A stretch of 64,000 nucleotides of DNA from Bremerella volcania. GTDB taxonomy: Bacteria > Planctomycetota > Planctomycetia > Pirellulales > Pirellulaceae. The notes beneath the pieces were generated by a model, which ran no database searches, had not been told where the DNA came from, and saw only the letters and a program-made list of their open reading frames with translations. This document shows, piece after piece, positions 52,050 through 61,910 of this stretch (its first letter is position 1; every line of letters begins with the position of its first letter). The stretch is taken from contig NZ_CP036289.1 in the NCBI RefSeq assembly GCF_007748115.1, forward strand, positions 3,162,001-3,226,000, written 5' to 3'. The translations under genes and the position numbers were made by a program.

Positions 52050-53693
52050 ATGTCGGAAATTCTTGTTCTTGTCGTTGAAGATAATCCACTCCAGGCTAAG
52101 CTGATCGAGGAGCTTCTCTCTGAAACGGGTGATACGAAGTTCACCATCTACGGCGTCGATCGTCTCGAAGCAGGCTTGAATTACCTGGCGCAGAATCGCC
52201 CTCACGCAATTCTGCTCGATCTTACGCTTCCCGACAGCGAAGGACTTCAGACCTTCCTGCGGATGCACCACGCTGCCGAGAACATCCCAGTGGTCGTCCT
52301 GACGGGCAACGACGACCTATCCTTGGCTGCCAAGGCCGTTGAAGCGGGTGCCCAGGATTACCTGGTGAAGGGAAAGATCGATGGACATCGCTTGGCCCGT
52401 TCTTTGAAGCTGGCCGTAAAGCGCACCCATGCCGAGCAGCAGGAGTGGAACTCCCCCATGCTGCACCTGGCACAGCAACAATTCTTGAAAGCGGCTCAGA
52501 TCATGAGCCTCGATGAGAATTTGCGAGAGCGGCTTCTGTTTCCACAGCGGACACTCGTGGTTACGTTGCCTTTTCGCAAAGATCGTTATACCCATGTCGA
52601 GACCGTATTTGGCTATCGAGTGCAGCACCTCTTGACGATGGGACCAACGAAGGGTGGTATTCGCTATCACGAAGACGTCGGCCTCGGCGAAGTGTCTGCC
52701 TTAGCGATGTGGATGACCTGGAAATGTGCGCTGATGCGTCTTCCTTTTGGTGGAGCCAAGGGGGGTGTCCGCATAGATCCAACCGACCTTACTGGGCACG
52801 AATTGCAACGATTGACGCGACGATACACAATGGAAATCATCGAAATGATTGGCCCTGAGAAGGACATTCCAGCCCCTGATATGGGCACGAACGAGCAGGT
52901 CATGGCCTGGCTAATGGACACTTACAGCCAGCAACTGGGGTACTCAGTTCCGACCATCGTGACCGGAAAGCCAGTGGCACTGGGAGGCTCGCTGGGGAGA
53001 CGTGAAGCTACCGGTCGCGGACTCGTGTACGTCATTGAGGAGGCCGCCAAGGTTATGGGAATGCCGATGCAAGGAGCCACGGCAGTGGTTCAAGGTTTCG
53101 GCAACGTCGGTAGTAACACGGCTCGGCTGTTGGAAGAACTGGGGACGAAGGTGATCGGTGTGAGCGACGTCTCGACGGGGCTTTACAATCCCAAAGGACT
53201 CTCTGTTGCCGATTTGCTTCAATACGTTGAGGACAATCGAGTCCTTAAAGGATATCCGCACGCTGAAGAAGTAACCAATCACGAGTTACTGGAGCTGAAG
53301 TGCGATATCCTGGCACCATGTGCGCTGCAGAATCAGATCACAGCCAGCAACGTCGAGAAGCTGCAGTGCAGGATGGTTGCTGAAGGTGCCAACGGTCCCA
53401 CCACGCTTGAGGCGGACGAAATTCTCAAGGACCGAGGGATTTTCGTCGTTCCGGACGTGCTCGGTAATGCGGGCGGGGTGACCGTTTCGTACTTCGAATG
53501 GGTTCAGGGAACGCAGAATTACATGTGGACCCTGGACGAAATCAACTCTCGGCTCAAGAAGATCTTGGTCGATGCGTTTCAGCGGACCCTTGGACGTAGC
53601 GAGAAGCAGAACCTTGATTTCCGCACGGCTGCGCTCATCGAGGGAATCGAAAGAGTTGCCGAAGCAAAGCTGCGTCGAGGCCTCTTCCCGTAA
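52050..53693 (+). CDS. Response-regulator receiver domain fused to glutamate dehydrogenase
   Basis: A 547-residue two-domain protein. Residues 1-125 are a CheY-like receiver domain with acidic pair Glu10-Asp11, phospho-acceptor Asp57 (AILLDLTLPD), Thr85 (VVVLTGNDD) and Lys107 (DYLVKGK): all required residues are present. Residues from about 135 form a full Glu/Leu/Phe/Val dehydrogenase with PTKGGIRYH (Lys201), MWMTWKCAL (Lys225), PFGGAKGGVRI (Lys237), PAPDMGTNE and the NAD site QGFGNVGSNTARL. GDH length is normal. GGAG lies 6 bases before the ATG. It is divergent from the arginine AST operon, whose end product is glutamate. Phosphorylation may control its activity. Confidence 0.95.
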   Translation: MSEILVLVVEDNPLQAKLIEELLSETGDTKFTIYGVDRLEAGLNYLAQNRPHAILLDLTLPDSEGLQTFLRMHHAAENIPVVVLTGNDDLSLAAKAVEAGAQDYLVKGKIDGHRLARSLKLAVKRTHAEQQEWNSPMLHLAQQQFLKAAQIMSLDENLRERLLFPQRTLVVTLPFRKDRYTHVETVFGYRVQHLLTMGPTKGGIRYHEDVGLGEVSALAMWMTWKCALMRLPFGGAKGGVRIDPTDLTGHELQRLTRRYTMEIIEMIGPEKDIPAPDMGTNEQVMAWLMDTYSQQLGYSVPTIVTGKPVALGGSLGRREATGRGLVYVIEEAAKVMGMPMQGATAVVQGFGNVGSNTARLLEELGTKVIGVSDVSTGLYNPKGLSVADLLQYVEDNRVLKGYPHAEEVTNHELLELKCDILAPCALQNQITASNVEKLQCRMVAEGANGPTTLEADEILKDRGIFVVPDVLGNAGGVTVSYFEWVQGTQNYMWTLDEINSRLKKILVDAFQRTLGRSEKQNLDFRTAALIEGIERVAEAKLRRGLFP

Positions 53694-54631: not shown

Positions 54632-57600
54632 TTACCAATCGAAGTAACGCCCCACTTCTCCGTCAGCCAGTTCCGCTTCATCGTCGGTCAATCTCGTCAA
54701 GCAAAACCGGTCCCCGTCCGCTGTCAGCATCTCCAATATCAGCGGATCAATGTTTTTCGACGAATTCGTAAACCCCAGATCCTGGAATAGATCATCAACT
54801 ACTTTGGTGTCCACAAGTTCGACGGGCGCTGCCGGGATGTCTTCATTGCGACTGGCAATAAAAGTGCTCAAGCCGAGCAAATAGTCGCTCGCTTGGTTCC
54901 CGCCGTTAGTTGGCTCACTTTCAGGGATCACGTCCGACTGGATGACCGCAGCTGAAGAATTCGGTTGGGGAACGACTGTCAAGGCAAGCACGTTTTCCTG
55001 GATCTGGGCTGAGCTCAACGACGATGTTCCCTTGAACGCGATCAAATTAGTTTCGGGCAGCCCAAATAGAACGCTGATAATCGAGTTTCCATCGGTCGCG
55101 GCATCGACGATTCCATCCTCATTGACGTCCAGCAGAAGTCCTACCTGTTCGACGTTCTGAAAGACCTCAGGAGCCATCAAAATCGTCGACCCCAGATACG
55201 GAGATAGCGAAGATTCGGGCAATCCAGAGAGCACGGCCAGAATGAGATTACCATCGGTCGAAGCATCGACCGTTCCATTCTGATTGATATCGAGAGGCGC
55301 GAATTGCTTGCCGATCTGGTCATCATTCAAGATGGTACCGGACGCTGTCGCACCGCTGATTTGAGCATCCCCACTGGTAGAGCTGAGTGTGACGACAAAT
55401 TGCTCATCAGGCTCCGCAATGGAATCGATGCTGGAACTAAAAGAAATCAGTTTCGACATTTGACCAGGATTGAAGCTTACCGAGCCACTCGGGAAAATAC
55501 CAGCAAAGTCTGATGCGTTGGCGGGATTGCTATTTCCTTCCGAGACTCCCCAGGTGACAGTTTGTACGGTGTCCAGGTAGCCAGATCGTCGAATCGAAAA
55601 GGCATGAAGATTCCCCTCGGCGGCATTGGCGATCGTAGCGACTATTTCGAGAGCCGCATCATCATCCAGGATTGAACCGATCGCGGTGCCGGAGAGCAGA
55701 CCAAGGCCTGAGGTTAAATTCGAGAGAGTAATGGAAAACTCTTCGTCAGGTTCAATCACCACGTCGGGAAAGATCGAAACGCTAATCAGTTTGCTGGCTT
55801 CACCGACGGCGAATGTGACGGTACCTGCAGGAAATTCAGTGCCAGGTTGCGAATCACCAAAGTCGTCGGCCGTGACCGGATTGCTGCCGCTCCCGGCAAT
55901 GGTGTAGTCCGCCGTGACGATTTGGTCGAGGTTTCCACTTCGCAGCAACTCAAAGGTGAGTAGAGTAGGACCTGTGCTACCCTCGAATTGAGACAGTGAT
56001 GAAGCTGCCCAGGACAGAGATGCATCGTCGTTCAAGATGGTTCCGGTAGCCGAATCGGTGGCGATGCTGAACCCTGCGGTCGCTGCTGTAAGATGTACTT
56101 CGAATTGCTCGTCTGGTTCTAAGATGGGATCCCCGGAAACGAAGATCGTAATCGTCTTGGTAACTTCCCCGGCGAGAAACGTTACCGTCCCCGAGGGCAT
56201 CGCGCCGCCAAAATCCGCGCCATCGGCCGGATGTTCGCTTACGCCAACGACGACATAGTTGACTTGAAACTCGGTTGCCGTTGAACCGTCTCGTGTCACG
56301 GTGAACGTGAGTTCCTGAGTCCCCGAGTCCCCTTCGTTTGCGGCGGCATGGTCGGGAGCAATGCTCACTCGACCATCGTCGTTGAAAATGGTACCGGTTG
56401 CTGCGGCAATCCCCTGCTGAGTTGCCCCAGTTGGAGTGCCAAGAGTCACGATAAATTGTTCGTCGTCTTCCAACGTCAGGTCAGCAACAACCGGAATCAC
56501 AAGTGTTACGGATGTGCTTCCCGCTGGGATCTCAACCGTGCCCGAGGGGAATACGGTTCCAAAATCGCTTGCATCCGCCGGGAAGGTCCCTGTTCCCGCT
56601 ACGGAATAGTCAACCGACAAGGCCTGCGAGGTATCTCCGGTGCGCGACACGGTGAACTGGAATTCAGTGCTTCCTCCAGTTCCCTCGGGCTTTTCGGCAT
56701 CAAGGGGAACGATATCCACAATAGAATCATCGGCAAGAATGGTTCCACTTGCAGTCTCCTCGGCGATGAGAGTACCGGAAGTGGCATTGGACAGCATAAT
56801 CTGGAATTGTTCGTCCTGCTCGACTTCTGTGTCACCTGTTACTTGAATCGTCAGGACATAGGTCGCCTCTGCTGGGGCGAATGTCAGTGTACCGGAAGGA
56901 AATTCGCCGCCGAAGTCATCCGCATTGGCCGGTGCCGCCCCACTTCCCGCAACGGCGAAATCGACCGTTGATTCAGCGGTTAGGTCGCCTGTGCGCTGCA
57001 CGGTGAATGTGAAGTTGGTGAGGTCTCCGTCATCTCCCTCGCTCAATATGGCATCGGTGGCGGTAATGGTGAGGGTCGGCGAGGAGGGTCCACCCAGATC
57101 GAGAATTGCCTCGGCTAATGCCAGAGCATCCACAAGGGGAAACGTCAGGCCTGTGTTGGTGACGTTGTCGTCTTCGTCATCACCGTCCATCACTTGCGAT
57201 GCCGTAGAGCGGAGCAGGTCCACGAATTCGCTCACGGTCAGCCTGCGACCGAGGACGTCATACGCCAGATCCTGAGCGAGCACCGCAATTCCCGAGATCT
57301 GCGGTGACGCCTGACTTGTGCCGTGTTGCGTCAGCAGGTTGCCATTAGCTCCCGCTCCTGTAATCGGCGCCCCTGGGGCCATGATCGTGGTTAGCTGCGA
57401 ATCGCGCTGGCTGAACGGAGTGATCCGCCCGCTGCCGGTGCTATTGGCAACGGCGCCGCTGGAATAGCTGAAACTACCAACGTCGCCGTCATAAACCGCA
57501 CCGACCGACAACGAGTTCGCATCCGCTGCCGGGTACCCCACACCTTGAACGCTGTCGAAGGTATAGAAACTGTTTCCCGAGGACGAGACTACGATGACGT

Positions 57601-58444
57601 CCAGTGCGGCCAGAGCCGCAAGTTCGTCACTTATTCCATAGAGTTGCTGGTTGGAGGCGTGATTCTGGGAATCTCCCAGCGACATATTAACGCTCGCGAT
57701 ATTATATGTCGCAGCATTGGCGACGACCCACTGCAGGGCCGATTCGACCATCCCGAAACTTCCACTTCCGCTGTCAGGGAACACCTTTAAATGGATGATG
57801 TCAGCGCCGGGCGCTGCCCCTGTATACGTAGCGTCTGAAGAGGCCACGATACTGGAAACGTTTGATCCGTGCCCATTAACGTCGCTCGCATCGGAATCAT
57901 TATCGGCAAAATCGTAGCTGTAAACGATTCGATCGGCTACGCCGTCGCCGTTGGAGTCTGGGCCAAAGAATGGATGGTCCAGGTCGATGCCTGTATCCAG
58001 AATAACGGTTGCGAACCCTGACCCATCGACGGAACTAAAACGTGGGTCTGTCCGATAGTCGTCGAGATGAATCAACGACGCTGACTGTTCCAGGGATGGA
58101 AAGATCCCCACCTCTTCGGTGGACCAAAGCTTACTGTCCGAGTAGATCGCCGCGGTCGACTTGGTCGTCGTCAGGGATCCAATTGCTTCGACGACACGTT
58201 GTTCGTAACGACTACTTGAAGACTCCAAAAGTGCCGCTTTTGCTGCGGCTGAGCTGATCGGTACGCAAACCGATTCGGACGTAGCTTCAAAGACGACAAA
58301 GTTGGGTTCTTGGGGAGCAACCGACAAGAGGTCTCGAGACTCAAGAACTTCGAAGCGAACACTCTGATGCAGAATGCGCCGTCGGTTACGCAATCCAGAT
58401 GTACGCAACGCACATCCGGATTGGCTCGAAGAACACAGGATCAT
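54632..58444 (-). CDS. Giant secreted subtilisin-type (S8) protease with Calx-beta and EF-hand modules
   Basis: A 1270-residue surface protein. The N-terminal tag RFEVLESRDLLS (about 30-41) is of the planctomycete LEPR-XLL type. The S8 peptidase domain (about 130-440) has an intact triad: Asp150 (VILDTGIDLDH), His192 (VNGHGSNVSS) and Ser377 (GTSQAS). Five Calx-beta domains follow (about 450-1030; each ends in GTI-x-x-DD), then two EF-hand/dockerin-like repeats (DINQNGTVDASTDGNLI and DVNEDGIVDAATDGNSI). It ends in GRYFDW. Calcium binding is expected. Divergent from the next giant gene. Confidence 0.92.
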   Translation of the reverse strand: MILCSSSQSGCALRTSGLRNRRRILHQSVRFEVLESRDLLSVAPQEPNFVVFEATSESVCVPISSAAAKAALLESSSSRYEQRVVEAIGSLTTTKSTAAIYSDSKLWSTEEVGIFPSLEQSASLIHLDDYRTDPRFSSVDGSGFATVILDTGIDLDHPFFGPDSNGDGVADRIVYSYDFADNDSDASDVNGHGSNVSSIVASSDATYTGAAPGADIIHLKVFPDSGSGSFGMVESALQWVVANAATYNIASVNMSLGDSQNHASNQQLYGISDELAALAALDVIVVSSSGNSFYTFDSVQGVGYPAADANSLSVGAVYDGDVGSFSYSSGAVANSTGSGRITPFSQRDSQLTTIMAPGAPITGAGANGNLLTQHGTSQASPQISGIAVLAQDLAYDVLGRRLTVSEFVDLLRSTASQVMDGDDEDDNVTNTGLTFPLVDALALAEAILDLGGPSSPTLTITATDAILSEGDDGDLTNFTFTVQRTGDLTAESTVDFAVAGSGAAPANADDFGGEFPSGTLTFAPAEATYVLTIQVTGDTEVEQDEQFQIMLSNATSGTLIAEETASGTILADDSIVDIVPLDAEKPEGTGGSTEFQFTVSRTGDTSQALSVDYSVAGTGTFPADASDFGTVFPSGTVEIPAGSTSVTLVIPVVADLTLEDDEQFIVTLGTPTGATQQGIAAATGTIFNDDGRVSIAPDHAAANEGDSGTQELTFTVTRDGSTATEFQVNYVVVGVSEHPADGADFGGAMPSGTVTFLAGEVTKTITIFVSGDPILEPDEQFEVHLTAATAGFSIATDSATGTILNDDASLSWAASSLSQFEGSTGPTLLTFELLRSGNLDQIVTADYTIAGSGSNPVTADDFGDSQPGTEFPAGTVTFAVGEASKLISVSIFPDVVIEPDEEFSITLSNLTSGLGLLSGTAIGSILDDDAALEIVATIANAAEGNLHAFSIRRSGYLDTVQTVTWGVSEGNSNPANASDFAGIFPSGSVSFNPGQMSKLISFSSSIDSIAEPDEQFVVTLSSTSGDAQISGATASGTILNDDQIGKQFAPLDINQNGTVDASTDGNLILAVLSGLPESSLSPYLGSTILMAPEVFQNVEQVGLLLDVNEDGIVDAATDGNSIISVLFGLPETNLIAFKGTSSLSSAQIQENVLALTVVPQPNSSAAVIQSDVIPESEPTNGGNQASDYLLGLSTFIASRNEDIPAAPVELVDTKVVDDLFQDLGFTNSSKNIDPLILEMLTADGDRFCLTRLTDDEAELADGEVGRYFDW

Positions 58445-58856
58445 GAATCACCAAGACAAGGAATCGTTATCAGGCTTCGCTCAGCAGAAGGGGCTAACCC
58501 GAGAGATTATCAACACCTTTGGTGCTTGACGCAACGTCCTTTCGGTAACGCAAATCTGTCGACTCCGCATTTCCCCGCGATCGGAATTCCCATGAGGGCA
58601 CCAGGAGGAGTACATCACATACCGCTTCGGTACTGCAGATGCGTGTGCAATCTGATTTCAGGCCACGCTTCGACTTGATGTGTTTTCCTTGCCTCCTTGA
58701 TCTATGTATCAGGAGTCGAAGCTCCATAACGCAGTGAGATGCGCCATTGGCAGTGGATAGTCAGGTGGAAAACTTCCTTGGAAAGTGCTCGGCAAGTCGC
58801 AACCAATCAGATAAATTAACGCACTTGAGCTTGGACGTATTAGCGGGAGATGCGCA
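58445..58856. other. Divergent intergenic region between giant surface-protein genes
   Basis: 412 bases without a credible gene. Both flanking genes read away from it, so it should hold two promoters. I see no strong -35/-10 pair, repeat or structured RNA by eye. Confidence 0.4.
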
Positions 58857-61800
58857 TTGATCAAGCGAGTTAAGTCTTCAGGTCGCAGCAACAAGCGGAC
58901 GGATCGTAAGCGTTGGCGAGGCCTTCGCCTTGAACTCTGCGAATTGCGGTTGCTGCTGACAGGAGAGATGCAGTTCGTATGGGCCGACGATGCCATTGCG
59001 GCACCATCGACGGCACTCGATATTCCAGTTCAGTATCAGACGCTCGACGTTGACGGCGACCCATTGAATGCGTTGGCTTCGGGGCTTGGTCTCCGGATGC
59101 ATTTCGATTCCACCAAGCTGACGTTCGACGGTCTTGGCGGAACGTTTACGGAAGATATCTTCTTCAACCCCGACACGGTAACACTGCAGGATGACGTTTC
59201 CGATTTAGACAACGACCCGACTACCGACAAGTATCTGACGGCCGTTTGGAACGATTTAATCCAGGTCGATGGGGGATGGCCGTCGTCCGGAAGTCAACCG
59301 CTGACGCTTTATACAGCCAATTTCACGACGGCCTTGGGCTTTTCAGGGCAGACTTCCGTCAACTTTACAAGCAGCAGTCCCGGCACCAATCCCTCGTCGG
59401 GTTTGCCATATGAGTTTAAAGCTCAATCGTCTTTGGTCTCAGTCCCTCCCATGCTGAGTGTCGTTGCAACCGATGCCAACAAAAATGAAGGCGATAGTGG
59501 AACAACCGACTTCACGTTCAATGTTATCCGGTCGGGAGTCACCAGCGAAAGCTCAACGGTCGACTATACCATTACAGGAAGTGGCACAAACGCTGCCGAC
59601 GCTTCTGACTTCGGCGGGAGCTTGCCAAACGGCCAGATCACATTCGCGGCAGGAGAGACCTCGAAGACGATCACAGTTCCTGTTAGCGGTGATACGCAGT
59701 TCGAATTGGATGAAGAGTTTACCGTCACGCTCGAGAATCCCGCCAGGGCAACGATTCAAACCGAAACGGTAACGGGAACCATCCTCAACGACGACACCGC
59801 AATTCCTACGATAACGGCTATTGATGATCAGGTGATTGATGAGGATGGAACTACCGGTGCCCTTGCCTTTACGCTCGGAGACCTCGACACGGACCTTGAT
59901 TCCCTCGTCATTACGGCATCCTCCGATAACCTGTCCCTGGTGCCTGATGAAAACATCGTCTTCGGAGGATCTGGGGCCAATCGTACGGTTGAAGTCAGCC
60001 CGGCCGCCGATGCCTCGGGATCGGCGGAGATTACCGTATCGGTCTTCGATGGCACGAATACGACGACCGAGAACTTAACGGTCATGGTCAATCCAATCAA
60101 TGACAAGCCCACCATCACCGCGATTGGCGACGTAACGATCCGCCTTGACGGTGCTACTCCACAGTTGCCATTCGCGGTCGGAGATATCGACGACGACGTA
60201 AACACGCTGGTCGTCTCGGCTGTATCGGACAATCAAGCACTGCTGCCTGATTCGCAGATTGTCGTCTCAGATACCGGGGCCAATCGGACTATCCAGGCAA
60301 CTCCAGTTTCTGGCCAAGAAGGAGTCGCGAATATCACGGTGACCGTGGCAGATAGTTCGTCAAATACAACGGAGCAGTTTGCGATAACGGTCTCGTCCGA
60401 TGGAGTTGAGTTATTCTTCGAATTTGATGTGCCTGGCATGGGCAAGTTTTCGCAGCTGGATGAAGTCGTTCTGGCTGCTGATCGTGAGTACTTTGTCACA
60501 GTCTATGCCGACAAGCTGCCTGCTATCGACCTGATCAGCTACCAACTCAATTTCGCCCAATCGGACTTGGGAGCTGGCCTGTTAGCGCTGAGTGATTGGT
60601 CAACAGCGTTTTCACTTCCTGTTGATAGTAGTCTATCCACGCCGTCTGATACCCTGGTTGCCGCAGCGAACTTGCAGTCGAAGATCACACCGGTCGCTTT
60701 GGGTACCTTTAAACTTTCAACACCTTCGGCCGCAGGCATCGGGCCCGAGGGGATTTTGCTATCGCTTGACAAACTTACAGGACAAGAAACGTCCGACACG
60801 ACAATTGGTAACCTCAATGGTCAGTCGCTACTAATTGTCGACTATGGAGATGTTGTCATTCACCTGGACGGCACCGCGCCGACTGTTACCAACATCGAGG
60901 CAAATGTTGATTTGGTCGATCCGGTGGACCTCCCGACGGGCGCACAACCCGCGGGGTGGACAGCGCAGCGAAGCGACGTGCGAAATATCGTGGTTACTTT
61001 CGATGAACCCATTGCGGAAGTGGTTGCGGCGGATCTGGTACTGACGAATTTGGGCATTGATGCCGATGTCTATGCCGATCAGGTGATCACGTTGACCGAT
61101 GGTCAGCTTTCGGTAGATGGCAACACCCTGACGATCATCTTTGCTCCCTACGAGCTTTCTGATGGGATCTATCAACTCGACGTGTTGCCTACCGTGACCG
61201 ACGTGCTGGGCAACAGCCTCGATGGTGACAAGGACACCCATGGGGGAGACGCGTTTGTCGAAGTGGGAAGTGTGGTGAACAAGTTGTTCAAACTTACCGG
61301 CGACTACAACGGCAGCGGGGGCGTTAATATTCTCGATTCAGCTACCCCGATCTATTGGTTTGGTTCCGATCAGGCCCCGCAGTACGTCGACCTGAATCAG
61401 TCGGGGGCAATCAACATTCTTGACTTCTCAGGCTACGTGGCCAACTTCGGTGTCGAGTTGACTTTCCCGCCCGAAGTACTCGCTGCACAGTCCGGTCGAA
61501 CTCTTGCCCTCAGCAGTGAACCATTCGAAACGGTTGAGAGTTCTACTGAGTTAGAGGTAGCAACTGCGTCAACTACGGCTGACCAAACGACGCAATACGC
61601 TGCGTCTTCGACAGGAAGGCTGTTGGACGGGGAACCCGTTTCGGGTCCAATCATGCAGCCTCCCATCGCACTTGTCGTCCTGTCGAACAATCGCAAAAGG
61701 GTAAGTGTCGGCGCGGAAATTGAAGAAGATTCGGAATTAGACCTGGCTAGCTCGAGCGATGAAGAATTGCCCCCACCACTTCCGGACCAACAAGTCATTG

Positions 61801-61910
61801 ATGCGGTGATGAGCCAGGTTTGTGAACCAGAGTTTGACGTTCTTGTTGAGCAGGAAGAATTGGAATCTTTTCTTGAAGTAGTTGATGCCGACGGCTATTT
61901 CGCGTGGTAG
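58857..61910 (+). CDS. Giant secreted protein with cohesin-like, Calx-beta and dockerin-like domains
   Basis: A 1017-residue protein. The N-terminal tag is RLELCELRLLLTGE. A cohesin-like beta-sandwich (about 40-195) comes first, then one Calx-beta domain (about 200-315, ends GTILNDD), two cadherin/Ig-like repeats (PTITAIDDQVID, PTITAIGDVTI), a second cohesin-like region (about 515-660), a Big-like domain, and a dockerin-like pair (GDYNGSGGVNILD, VDLNQSGAINILD). It ends in DGYFAW. Start is TTG with GGGAG at 7 bases. Probably a calcium-dependent surface or matrix protein; function unknown. Confidence 0.88.
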   Translation: MIKRVKSSGRSNKRTDRKRWRGLRLELCELRLLLTGEMQFVWADDAIAAPSTALDIPVQYQTLDVDGDPLNALASGLGLRMHFDSTKLTFDGLGGTFTEDIFFNPDTVTLQDDVSDLDNDPTTDKYLTAVWNDLIQVDGGWPSSGSQPLTLYTANFTTALGFSGQTSVNFTSSSPGTNPSSGLPYEFKAQSSLVSVPPMLSVVATDANKNEGDSGTTDFTFNVIRSGVTSESSTVDYTITGSGTNAADASDFGGSLPNGQITFAAGETSKTITVPVSGDTQFELDEEFTVTLENPARATIQTETVTGTILNDDTAIPTITAIDDQVIDEDGTTGALAFTLGDLDTDLDSLVITASSDNLSLVPDENIVFGGSGANRTVEVSPAADASGSAEITVSVFDGTNTTTENLTVMVNPINDKPTITAIGDVTIRLDGATPQLPFAVGDIDDDVNTLVVSAVSDNQALLPDSQIVVSDTGANRTIQATPVSGQEGVANITVTVADSSSNTTEQFAITVSSDGVELFFEFDVPGMGKFSQLDEVVLAADREYFVTVYADKLPAIDLISYQLNFAQSDLGAGLLALSDWSTAFSLPVDSSLSTPSDTLVAAANLQSKITPVALGTFKLSTPSAAGIGPEGILLSLDKLTGQETSDTTIGNLNGQSLLIVDYGDVVIHLDGTAPTVTNIEANVDLVDPVDLPTGAQPAGWTAQRSDVRNIVVTFDEPIAEVVAADLVLTNLGIDADVYADQVITLTDGQLSVDGNTLTIIFAPYELSDGIYQLDVLPTVTDVLGNSLDGDKDTHGGDAFVEVGSVVNKLFKLTGDYNGSGGVNILDSATPIYWFGSDQAPQYVDLNQSGAINILDFSGYVANFGVELTFPPEVLAAQSGRTLALSSEPFETVESSTELEVATASTTADQTTQYAASSTGRLLDGEPVSGPIMQPPIALVVLSNNRKRVSVGAEIEEDSELDLASSSDEELPPPLPDQQVIDAVMSQVCEPEFDVLVEQEELESFLEVVDADGYFAW

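Follow-up and report, generated by a model that had tools for sequence, protein, structure and literature searches.

A degenerate C-terminal motif in LEPR-XLL proteins of Bremerella volcania and its relatives, and a candidate link to an export module

Introduction

Toward the end of a 64,000-nucleotide stretch of the Bremerella volcania genome (6.50 Mb, a single contig, NZ_CP036289.1; positions 3162001-3226000, hereafter the window), two divergent genes encode an S8 protease and a 1017-residue surface protein. Both proteins appear to start with a form of the N-terminal LEPR-XLL tag and end in YFxW, which raises the question of whether such proteins carry a C-terminal signal for sorting or secretion in addition to the tag. 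The original prediction placed this signal in YFxW itself. We find that YFxW ends belong to this pair of genes, and that a different, degenerate motif, located upstream of YFxW in both proteins, is shared by many LEPR-XLL C-termini of the family. A role for this motif in sorting or secretion is what we infer.

The tag was reportedly defined by Studholme in 2004. LEPR-XLL proteins reach great length (12,308 amino acids in another species of the genus, here G044), and as far as we have seen their exit route is not established. In R. baltica the form RRLxxExLExRxLLA is presumed to be a novel N-terminal export signal, and in Tuwongella immobilis 52 genes have a related motif, with 20 of their proteins detected (PMC8567305, in the part of the paper available to us). 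The window proteins appear to carry this type of tag. The description in that part of the paper concerns the N-terminus only (PMC8567305), whereas the motif reported here is separate and, in the present samples, restricted to one family.

Results

A short motif recurs near the C-termini of LEPR-XLL proteins

Within the window's family, the Pirellulaceae, many LEPR-XLL C-termini share a short, degenerate motif at a variable distance before the stop codon, which we refer to as the C-motif. The B. volcania set holds 25 LEPR-XLL proteins: 24 PF07595 matches, less two (one with no open frame, one in a 203-residue frame), plus three recognized by eye. On reading the tails, a core of the form [VI]D-x-[VLA]-[FM] was seen to recur, as in VDAVFAEWE, VDDLFAEWD, VDAVLADL, IDAVFQSE and others. 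A nine-column matrix was trained solely on the tails of this genome (16 sites from the 25 proteins), with a score of at least 8 taken as a match, and by this measure 16/25 proteins of the training genome carry the C-motif. We then scanned the last 80 residues of 57 complete LEPR-XLL open reading frames (ORFs), which come from 22 genomes, one for each of 22 other genera. The same matrix found the motif in 14 of them, as opposed to 3 of the 279 ordinary C-termini scanned (Fisher 1.7e-9); in internal windows of the 57 proteins the rate was 1.6%. These relatives came from 60 loci taken down an E-value-ranked list with several entries skipped. Three of the loci had no complete ORF, and in one of the 57 a masked run lies close to the end. 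The ordinary C-termini were taken from 20 segments distributed over the genome, each 20 kb long, after one of 280 ORFs had been removed for its tag-like N-terminus.

The enrichment was seen again in a second set, made up of 19 LEPR-XLL ORFs from nine of the exporter loci described below and six from the G044 counterpart of the window locus, two of which were entered by length with their tags read by eye. In this set the C-motif is found in 12 of 25 LEPR-XLL ORFs and in 4 of the 184 remaining ORFs of those loci (7e-10), and in a sample of 80 M50-HlyD loci the counts are 3/7 and 8/731, respectively. The carriers differ widely in their domains, which include an S8 protease, a cyclophilin with a matrixin-like end and cadherin-like repeats. 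The G044 locus has the same flanking genes as the window, and there the orthologue of the 1017-residue protein (58% identity) retains AIDESFREL 30 residues before the stop, the same distance from the end. An S8-related neighbour of 1551 residues in G044 has VIQLLFGDW.

Refinement on 107 distinct tails gave the consensus A-[VI]-D-[AEDQ]-[VLA]-[FML]-[AS]-[DE]-[LFW]. The refined matrix, which is fitted on these same tails, passes 72 of the 107 at a lax cut-off; the site ends at most 5 residues from the stop in 26 of the passing tails and at most 50 in 68. The motif begins 55 residues before the end of the S8 protein and 37 before that of the 1017-residue protein. The hydrophobic moment of the consensus is 1.33 at 100 degrees compared with 0.78 at 170. 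AlphaFold was run on the last 219 residues of the 1017-residue protein and gave a helix at 180-188 mostly overlapping VIDAVMSQV, at a mean predicted local distance difference test score of 32, which we do not count as evidence. At the DNA level, a strict form of the C-motif has 10 matches in the genome and the reversed pattern has 2. Two of the ten fall no more than 30 residues from where a long frame ends, in each case a LEPR-XLL gene, and the rest are internal or in short frames. We found no earlier report of the C-motif, or of a link between the tag and the export module considered below, in the literature searched.

Could such a motif be a functionless product of chance in acidic, hydrophobic tails, or of common descent of the last stretch? 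The motif is degenerate, the tails are acidic, and the lax cut-off of the refined matrix also passes 36 of 463 ordinary C-termini and, among internal windows, 6.3%, all of which this explanation would accommodate. However, a simple regular expression of the core matches the last 60 residues of 13/25 B. volcania and 14/57 related proteins and only about 2% of shuffled tails, and the matrix trained on one genome reaches P values of about 1e-9 on two other sets. We therefore regard chance or descent as an improbable source of the C-motif.

The terminal YFxW is confined to two adjacent genes

The tails that drew attention to the locus are present as predicted, ADGEVGRYFDW before the stop of the S8 protein and EVVDADGYFAW before that of the 1017-residue protein, and both are acidic. 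Tails that are acidic and end in an aromatic residue are indeed enriched among the LEPR-XLL proteins of B. volcania, and hardly so among their relatives. Aspartate and glutamate make up 31% of the last 20 residues in the B. volcania LEPR-XLL proteins and 13.5% in other C-termini of the genome, and the last residue is F, W or Y in 7/25 of the former versus 11/279 of the latter (Fisher 1.9e-4), with a weak showing in the relatives (4/57). As a signal of the LEPR-XLL class, YFxW itself was rejected. The original prediction had looked to enrichment across the class, and we find YFxW ends in 2 of the 25 B. volcania proteins, in none of the 57 ORFs from 22 other genera, in none of the 279 background C-termini and in 2/107 of all LEPR-XLL tails examined. 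Within the genus it is missing from G044, where the orthologue of the 1017-residue protein ends in KKKSY and the S8 homologue in AEYSGS. Nor did we confirm that the domains preceding the two tails are unrelated, as Calx-beta domains occur in both proteins.

The pair is still unusual. The pattern TAYTTYNNNTGGTRR has 6 matches genome-wide, of which three have TGG as the next codon and one falls in a 25-residue frame, and the S8 and 1017-residue proteins are the only long frames ending in YFxW in the 6.5-Mb genome. Tail composition predicts 0.0013 YF.W ends among the 25 LEPR-XLL proteins, and two are observed, yet the pattern was picked after being seen. A real signal, recently gained by the adjacent pair through local gene conversion or selection for a common partner, would explain why the sole two such frames adjoin each other in a genome whose LEPR-XLL proteins are over-represented for terminal aromatics. 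However, the pattern was chosen post hoc, it is missing from the 57 relatives and from both G044 proteins, and the flanking residues differ (EVGRYFDW and DADGYFAW), so that we consider this explanation very improbable. What stands of the original prediction is its wider idea of a short C-terminal signal alongside the N-terminal LEx-R-xLL tag, with the C-motif, and not YFxW, as the element that is enriched.

The N-terminal tag of the window proteins

Judged by their N-termini, both window proteins would be LEPR-XLL (Planc_extracel) proteins, a class whose large members lack a hydrophobic Sec signal peptide and are presumably exported. The S8 protein matches PF07595 below the cut-off. The 1017-residue protein has no PF07595 match at E<=10, and its tag was read by eye; the tag of its G044 orthologue scores clearly (RTRLACEKCEPRLMLVG). 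A scan of the window proteins against NCBIfam found no tag model at E<=10. In one planctomycete protein, PF07595 and the NCBIfam model NF012209 (LEPR-8K) both hit a single segment, each under its cut-off. As a crude measure of a classical signal peptide we took the highest hydropathy over any 12 residues up to the tag; in 24 of the 25 B. volcania proteins and 55 of the 57 relatives it falls below 1.74, the smallest value among six comparison signal peptides.

An export module lies among LEPR-XLL genes

Kamneva, Poudel and Ward (2015) described a SecA_DEAD / HlyD / M50 module with a broader role called 'completely unknown' (PMC4452313, in the part available to us). In B. volcania, genes for a SecA-like ATPase and for GAF-HlyD, HlyD and M50-HlyD proteins lie together at 2395742-2403471, and in the 57-kb stretch around them (2364501-2421500) we count 7 of the genome's 25 LEPR-XLL genes (binomial 1.7e-9). 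BBP7/BBP2 porins are also encoded within this stretch. There is another M50-HlyD gene, whose end lies 1.4 kb ahead of a LEPR-XLL gene of 3532 codons. Of 31 genomes of the family, 30 contain a relative of the M50-HlyD protein; the SecA-like query has matches in 31/31, ordinary SecA counted too. In the genome contigs searched, the best named relative of the M50-HlyD protein is from Blastopirellula marina, at 68% identity. We collected 12 module loci from relatives, 11 of which have SecA near M50-HlyD on one contig. LEPR-XLL ORFs occur in nine of the 12, at one to five per locus and 19 altogether, where genome densities predict about 1 to 4 (P <= 4e-8), an expectation that uses an assumed factor of 3-4 between PF07595 counts and the tag matrix. 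The tagged giants near this module suggest substrates for it. The part of the earlier paper available to us names none (PMC4452313), and it is from gene neighbourhood that LEPR-XLL proteins are candidates here.

The M50-HlyD protein also finds relatives on plasmids (76 matching records). Among the records, of which 40 of the 76 were listed, we hand-picked 12 proteobacterial loci in a range of genera; 11 are from Alphaproteobacteria and the twelfth is on an E. coli plasmid. All 12 have a giant ORF with an [LMIY]E[PS]R-type tag beside the M50-HlyD exporter. In two of the giants the tag lies just upstream of the annotated start and in frame, so those gene starts are probably wrong. Three of the giants are named 'LEPR-XLL domain-containing protein' by NCBI. 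SecA is present in two of the loci by sequence match and in a third by name, and it is not annotated in three, which leaves M50-HlyD as the constant partner in the proteobacterial loci. The SecA-like protein as query against plasmids gave mostly ordinary SecA among the matches listed (40 of 129). In the loci examined, then, a tag without the C-motif goes with an M50-HlyD exporter on proteobacterial plasmids. On the E. coli plasmid NZ_CP081687.1 and an Azospirillum lipoferum plasmid, TolC, HlyD and M50-HlyD genes adjoin the giant surface-protein genes, with N-termini ALESRQLFDG and ALEPRFMFDA, and no SecA is annotated in the stretch.

A candidate two-signal model and its alternatives

Because the tag goes with the exporter across phyla, we suggest that it is an export leader for the M50-HlyD module, with the C-motif as a further signal for sorting or docking that is restricted to the family, a reading that we hold to be evenly poised between right and wrong. 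The tag would be read by the export module, perhaps by a PqqD-like domain of the M50-HlyD protein, and the tagged protein would then be moved with the help of the SecA-like ATPase and the HlyD adaptors. The PqqD fold binds leader peptides in systems for ribosomally synthesized and post-translationally modified peptides (RiPPs), and PqqD matches were found in 10 of 20 M50-HlyD proteins (best 1.6e-6). The C-motif may fold as a short amphipathic helix, recognized by a partner specific to the family, and could serve as a second signal for sorting, release or surface docking. As a defined motif, it would be a testable second signal.

A broader proposal, which we put forward as possible and no firmer than tentative, is that the SecA_DEAD / HlyD / M50 module has LEPR-XLL proteins as its missing substrates and is a secretion pathway dedicated to giant surface proteins in Planctomycetes and Proteobacteria. 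In this pathway the PqqD-like domain would read the tag like a RiPP leader, M50 would cleave it, and a C-terminal VDxVFAxL helix would act as a second address in Pirellulaceae-like planctomycetes.

Several results weigh against these readings. Scores below 8 are found for 43 of the 57 relatives (some show variants by eye), the S8 homologue in G044 (2301 residues) lacks a strong C-motif, and no score of at least 8 is reached among 20 LEPR-XLL proteins from four further families in the class (best 7.0) or among the 12 proteobacterial giants (best 5.7). Since the C-motif is missing in those families and giants, it would not be needed for export in general. The planctomycete tag matrix scores at least 8 in 7 of the 12 proteobacterial tags. 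The other five were accepted by eye: three score 6.9, 2.1 and -4.3, and the two upstream tags were read unscored. The PqqD match of the B. volcania M50-HlyD protein is below Pfam's cut-off. Finally, among the best 80 of 572 M50-HlyD loci in the genome contigs searched, with flanks of up to 10 kb and five overlapping earlier loci, a complete LEPR-XLL ORF lies within 10 kb in just 7. The short flanks mean that giant genes are often cut; with cut ORFs included, LEPR-XLL genes are found in 5 of 13 loci with SecA versus 5 of 67 without it. In loci without SecA there is no sign of linkage between M50-HlyD and LEPR-XLL genes. We therefore dropped a link that is general in Planctomycetes and limit it to loci with SecA. 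Tag matches reach up to 57 per genome at E <= 0.05, so a general exporter need not adjoin its substrates.

The restriction of the C-motif to one family, when tag and exporter are found more widely, would also fit a surface docking peptide that is unrelated to sorting or export, for example one that assembles large proteins together. Its variable distance from the stop and the dockerin-like or adhesive repeat domains in several of the proteins are consistent with docking. The motif spans very different domain architectures, however, which fits a general address equally well, and we judge docking as its only role to be unlikely, if less so than the chance explanation above.

The two-signal reading can be set beside known systems. 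Like the C-motif, PEP-CTERM and LPXTG signals are short, sit near the C-terminus and are found on surface proteins with many different architectures; in PEP-CTERM a transmembrane helix is followed by basic residues. Both were rejected, as neither a membrane-like stretch (19-residue hydropathy of at least 1.6) nor LPxTG occurs in the last 60 residues of any of the 25 B. volcania or 57 related proteins. In the C-terminal signals of repeats-in-toxin (RTX) proteins, which leave by type I secretion with HlyD adaptors, hydrophobic residues follow an acidic one close to the end. The C-motif shares this order of residues, and the module shares the HlyD adaptors. Unlike RTX proteins, however, just 1/25 B. 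volcania and 5/57 related LEPR-XLL proteins have GGxGxD repeats (at least three), and the ATPase beside the adaptors is SecA-like, with no ATP-binding cassette transporter among the cluster proteins scanned.

Genes and features of the window

Features of the two genes and their downstream neighbour are collected in Table 1. Four LEPR-XLL genes lie within 17 kb, namely the S8 gene, the 1017-residue gene and the next two genes, and in the latter two the C-motif scores below 8. The tail of the first of these two, the 1891-residue protein, is without a strong C-motif (LLDEIMELK, 2.2 by the refined matrix). Calx-beta domains above Pfam's cut-off occur, in the whole genome, in the S8 protein, the 1017-residue protein and the next gene only. 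The dockerin-like stretch of the 1017-residue protein scores under Pfam's cut-off, and a related-locus search with this protein as query found no relative.

Table 1. Positions of genes and sequence elements within the window
Feature	Position	Strand	Remarks
LEPR-XLL-type S8 protease gene, 1270 aa	54632..58444	-	subtilase domain, five Calx-beta domains, acidic tail
Terminal YFDW of S8 protein	54635..54646	-	judged not the common signal
C-motif VVDDLFQDL of S8 protein	54776..54802	-	18.1 by matrix trained on this genome; 47 residues before stop
N-terminal tag of S8 protein, FEVLESRDLLS region	58316..58357	-	PF07595 14.6 bits, E 0.36, cut-off 25.5
Surface-protein gene, 1017 aa	58857..61910	+	Calx-beta, Big_9, dockerin-like stretch, acidic tail
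Divergent N-terminal tag LRLELCELRLLLT of 1017-aa protein	58923..58961	+	read by eye
C-motif VIDAVMSQV of 1017-aa protein	61794..61820	+	15.2 by matrix trained on this genome; 29 residues before stop
Terminal YFAW of 1017-aa protein	61896..61907	+	judged not the common signal
Third LEPR-XLL Calx-beta gene, 1891 aa	61960..64000	+	extends beyond window end

Two very large LEPR-XLL ORFs were also noted. In G044, the ORF of 12,308 residues lies between the S8 homologue and the orthologue of the 1017-residue protein (G044:C73:242170-279096), and in B. volcania a LEPR-XLL ORF of 5803 residues at 3257191-3274602 has, by eye, an end like an HNH/AHH nuclease toxin and is without the C-motif. At 52050-53693 of the window, an ORF appears by eye to fuse a response-regulator receiver domain to glutamate dehydrogenase.

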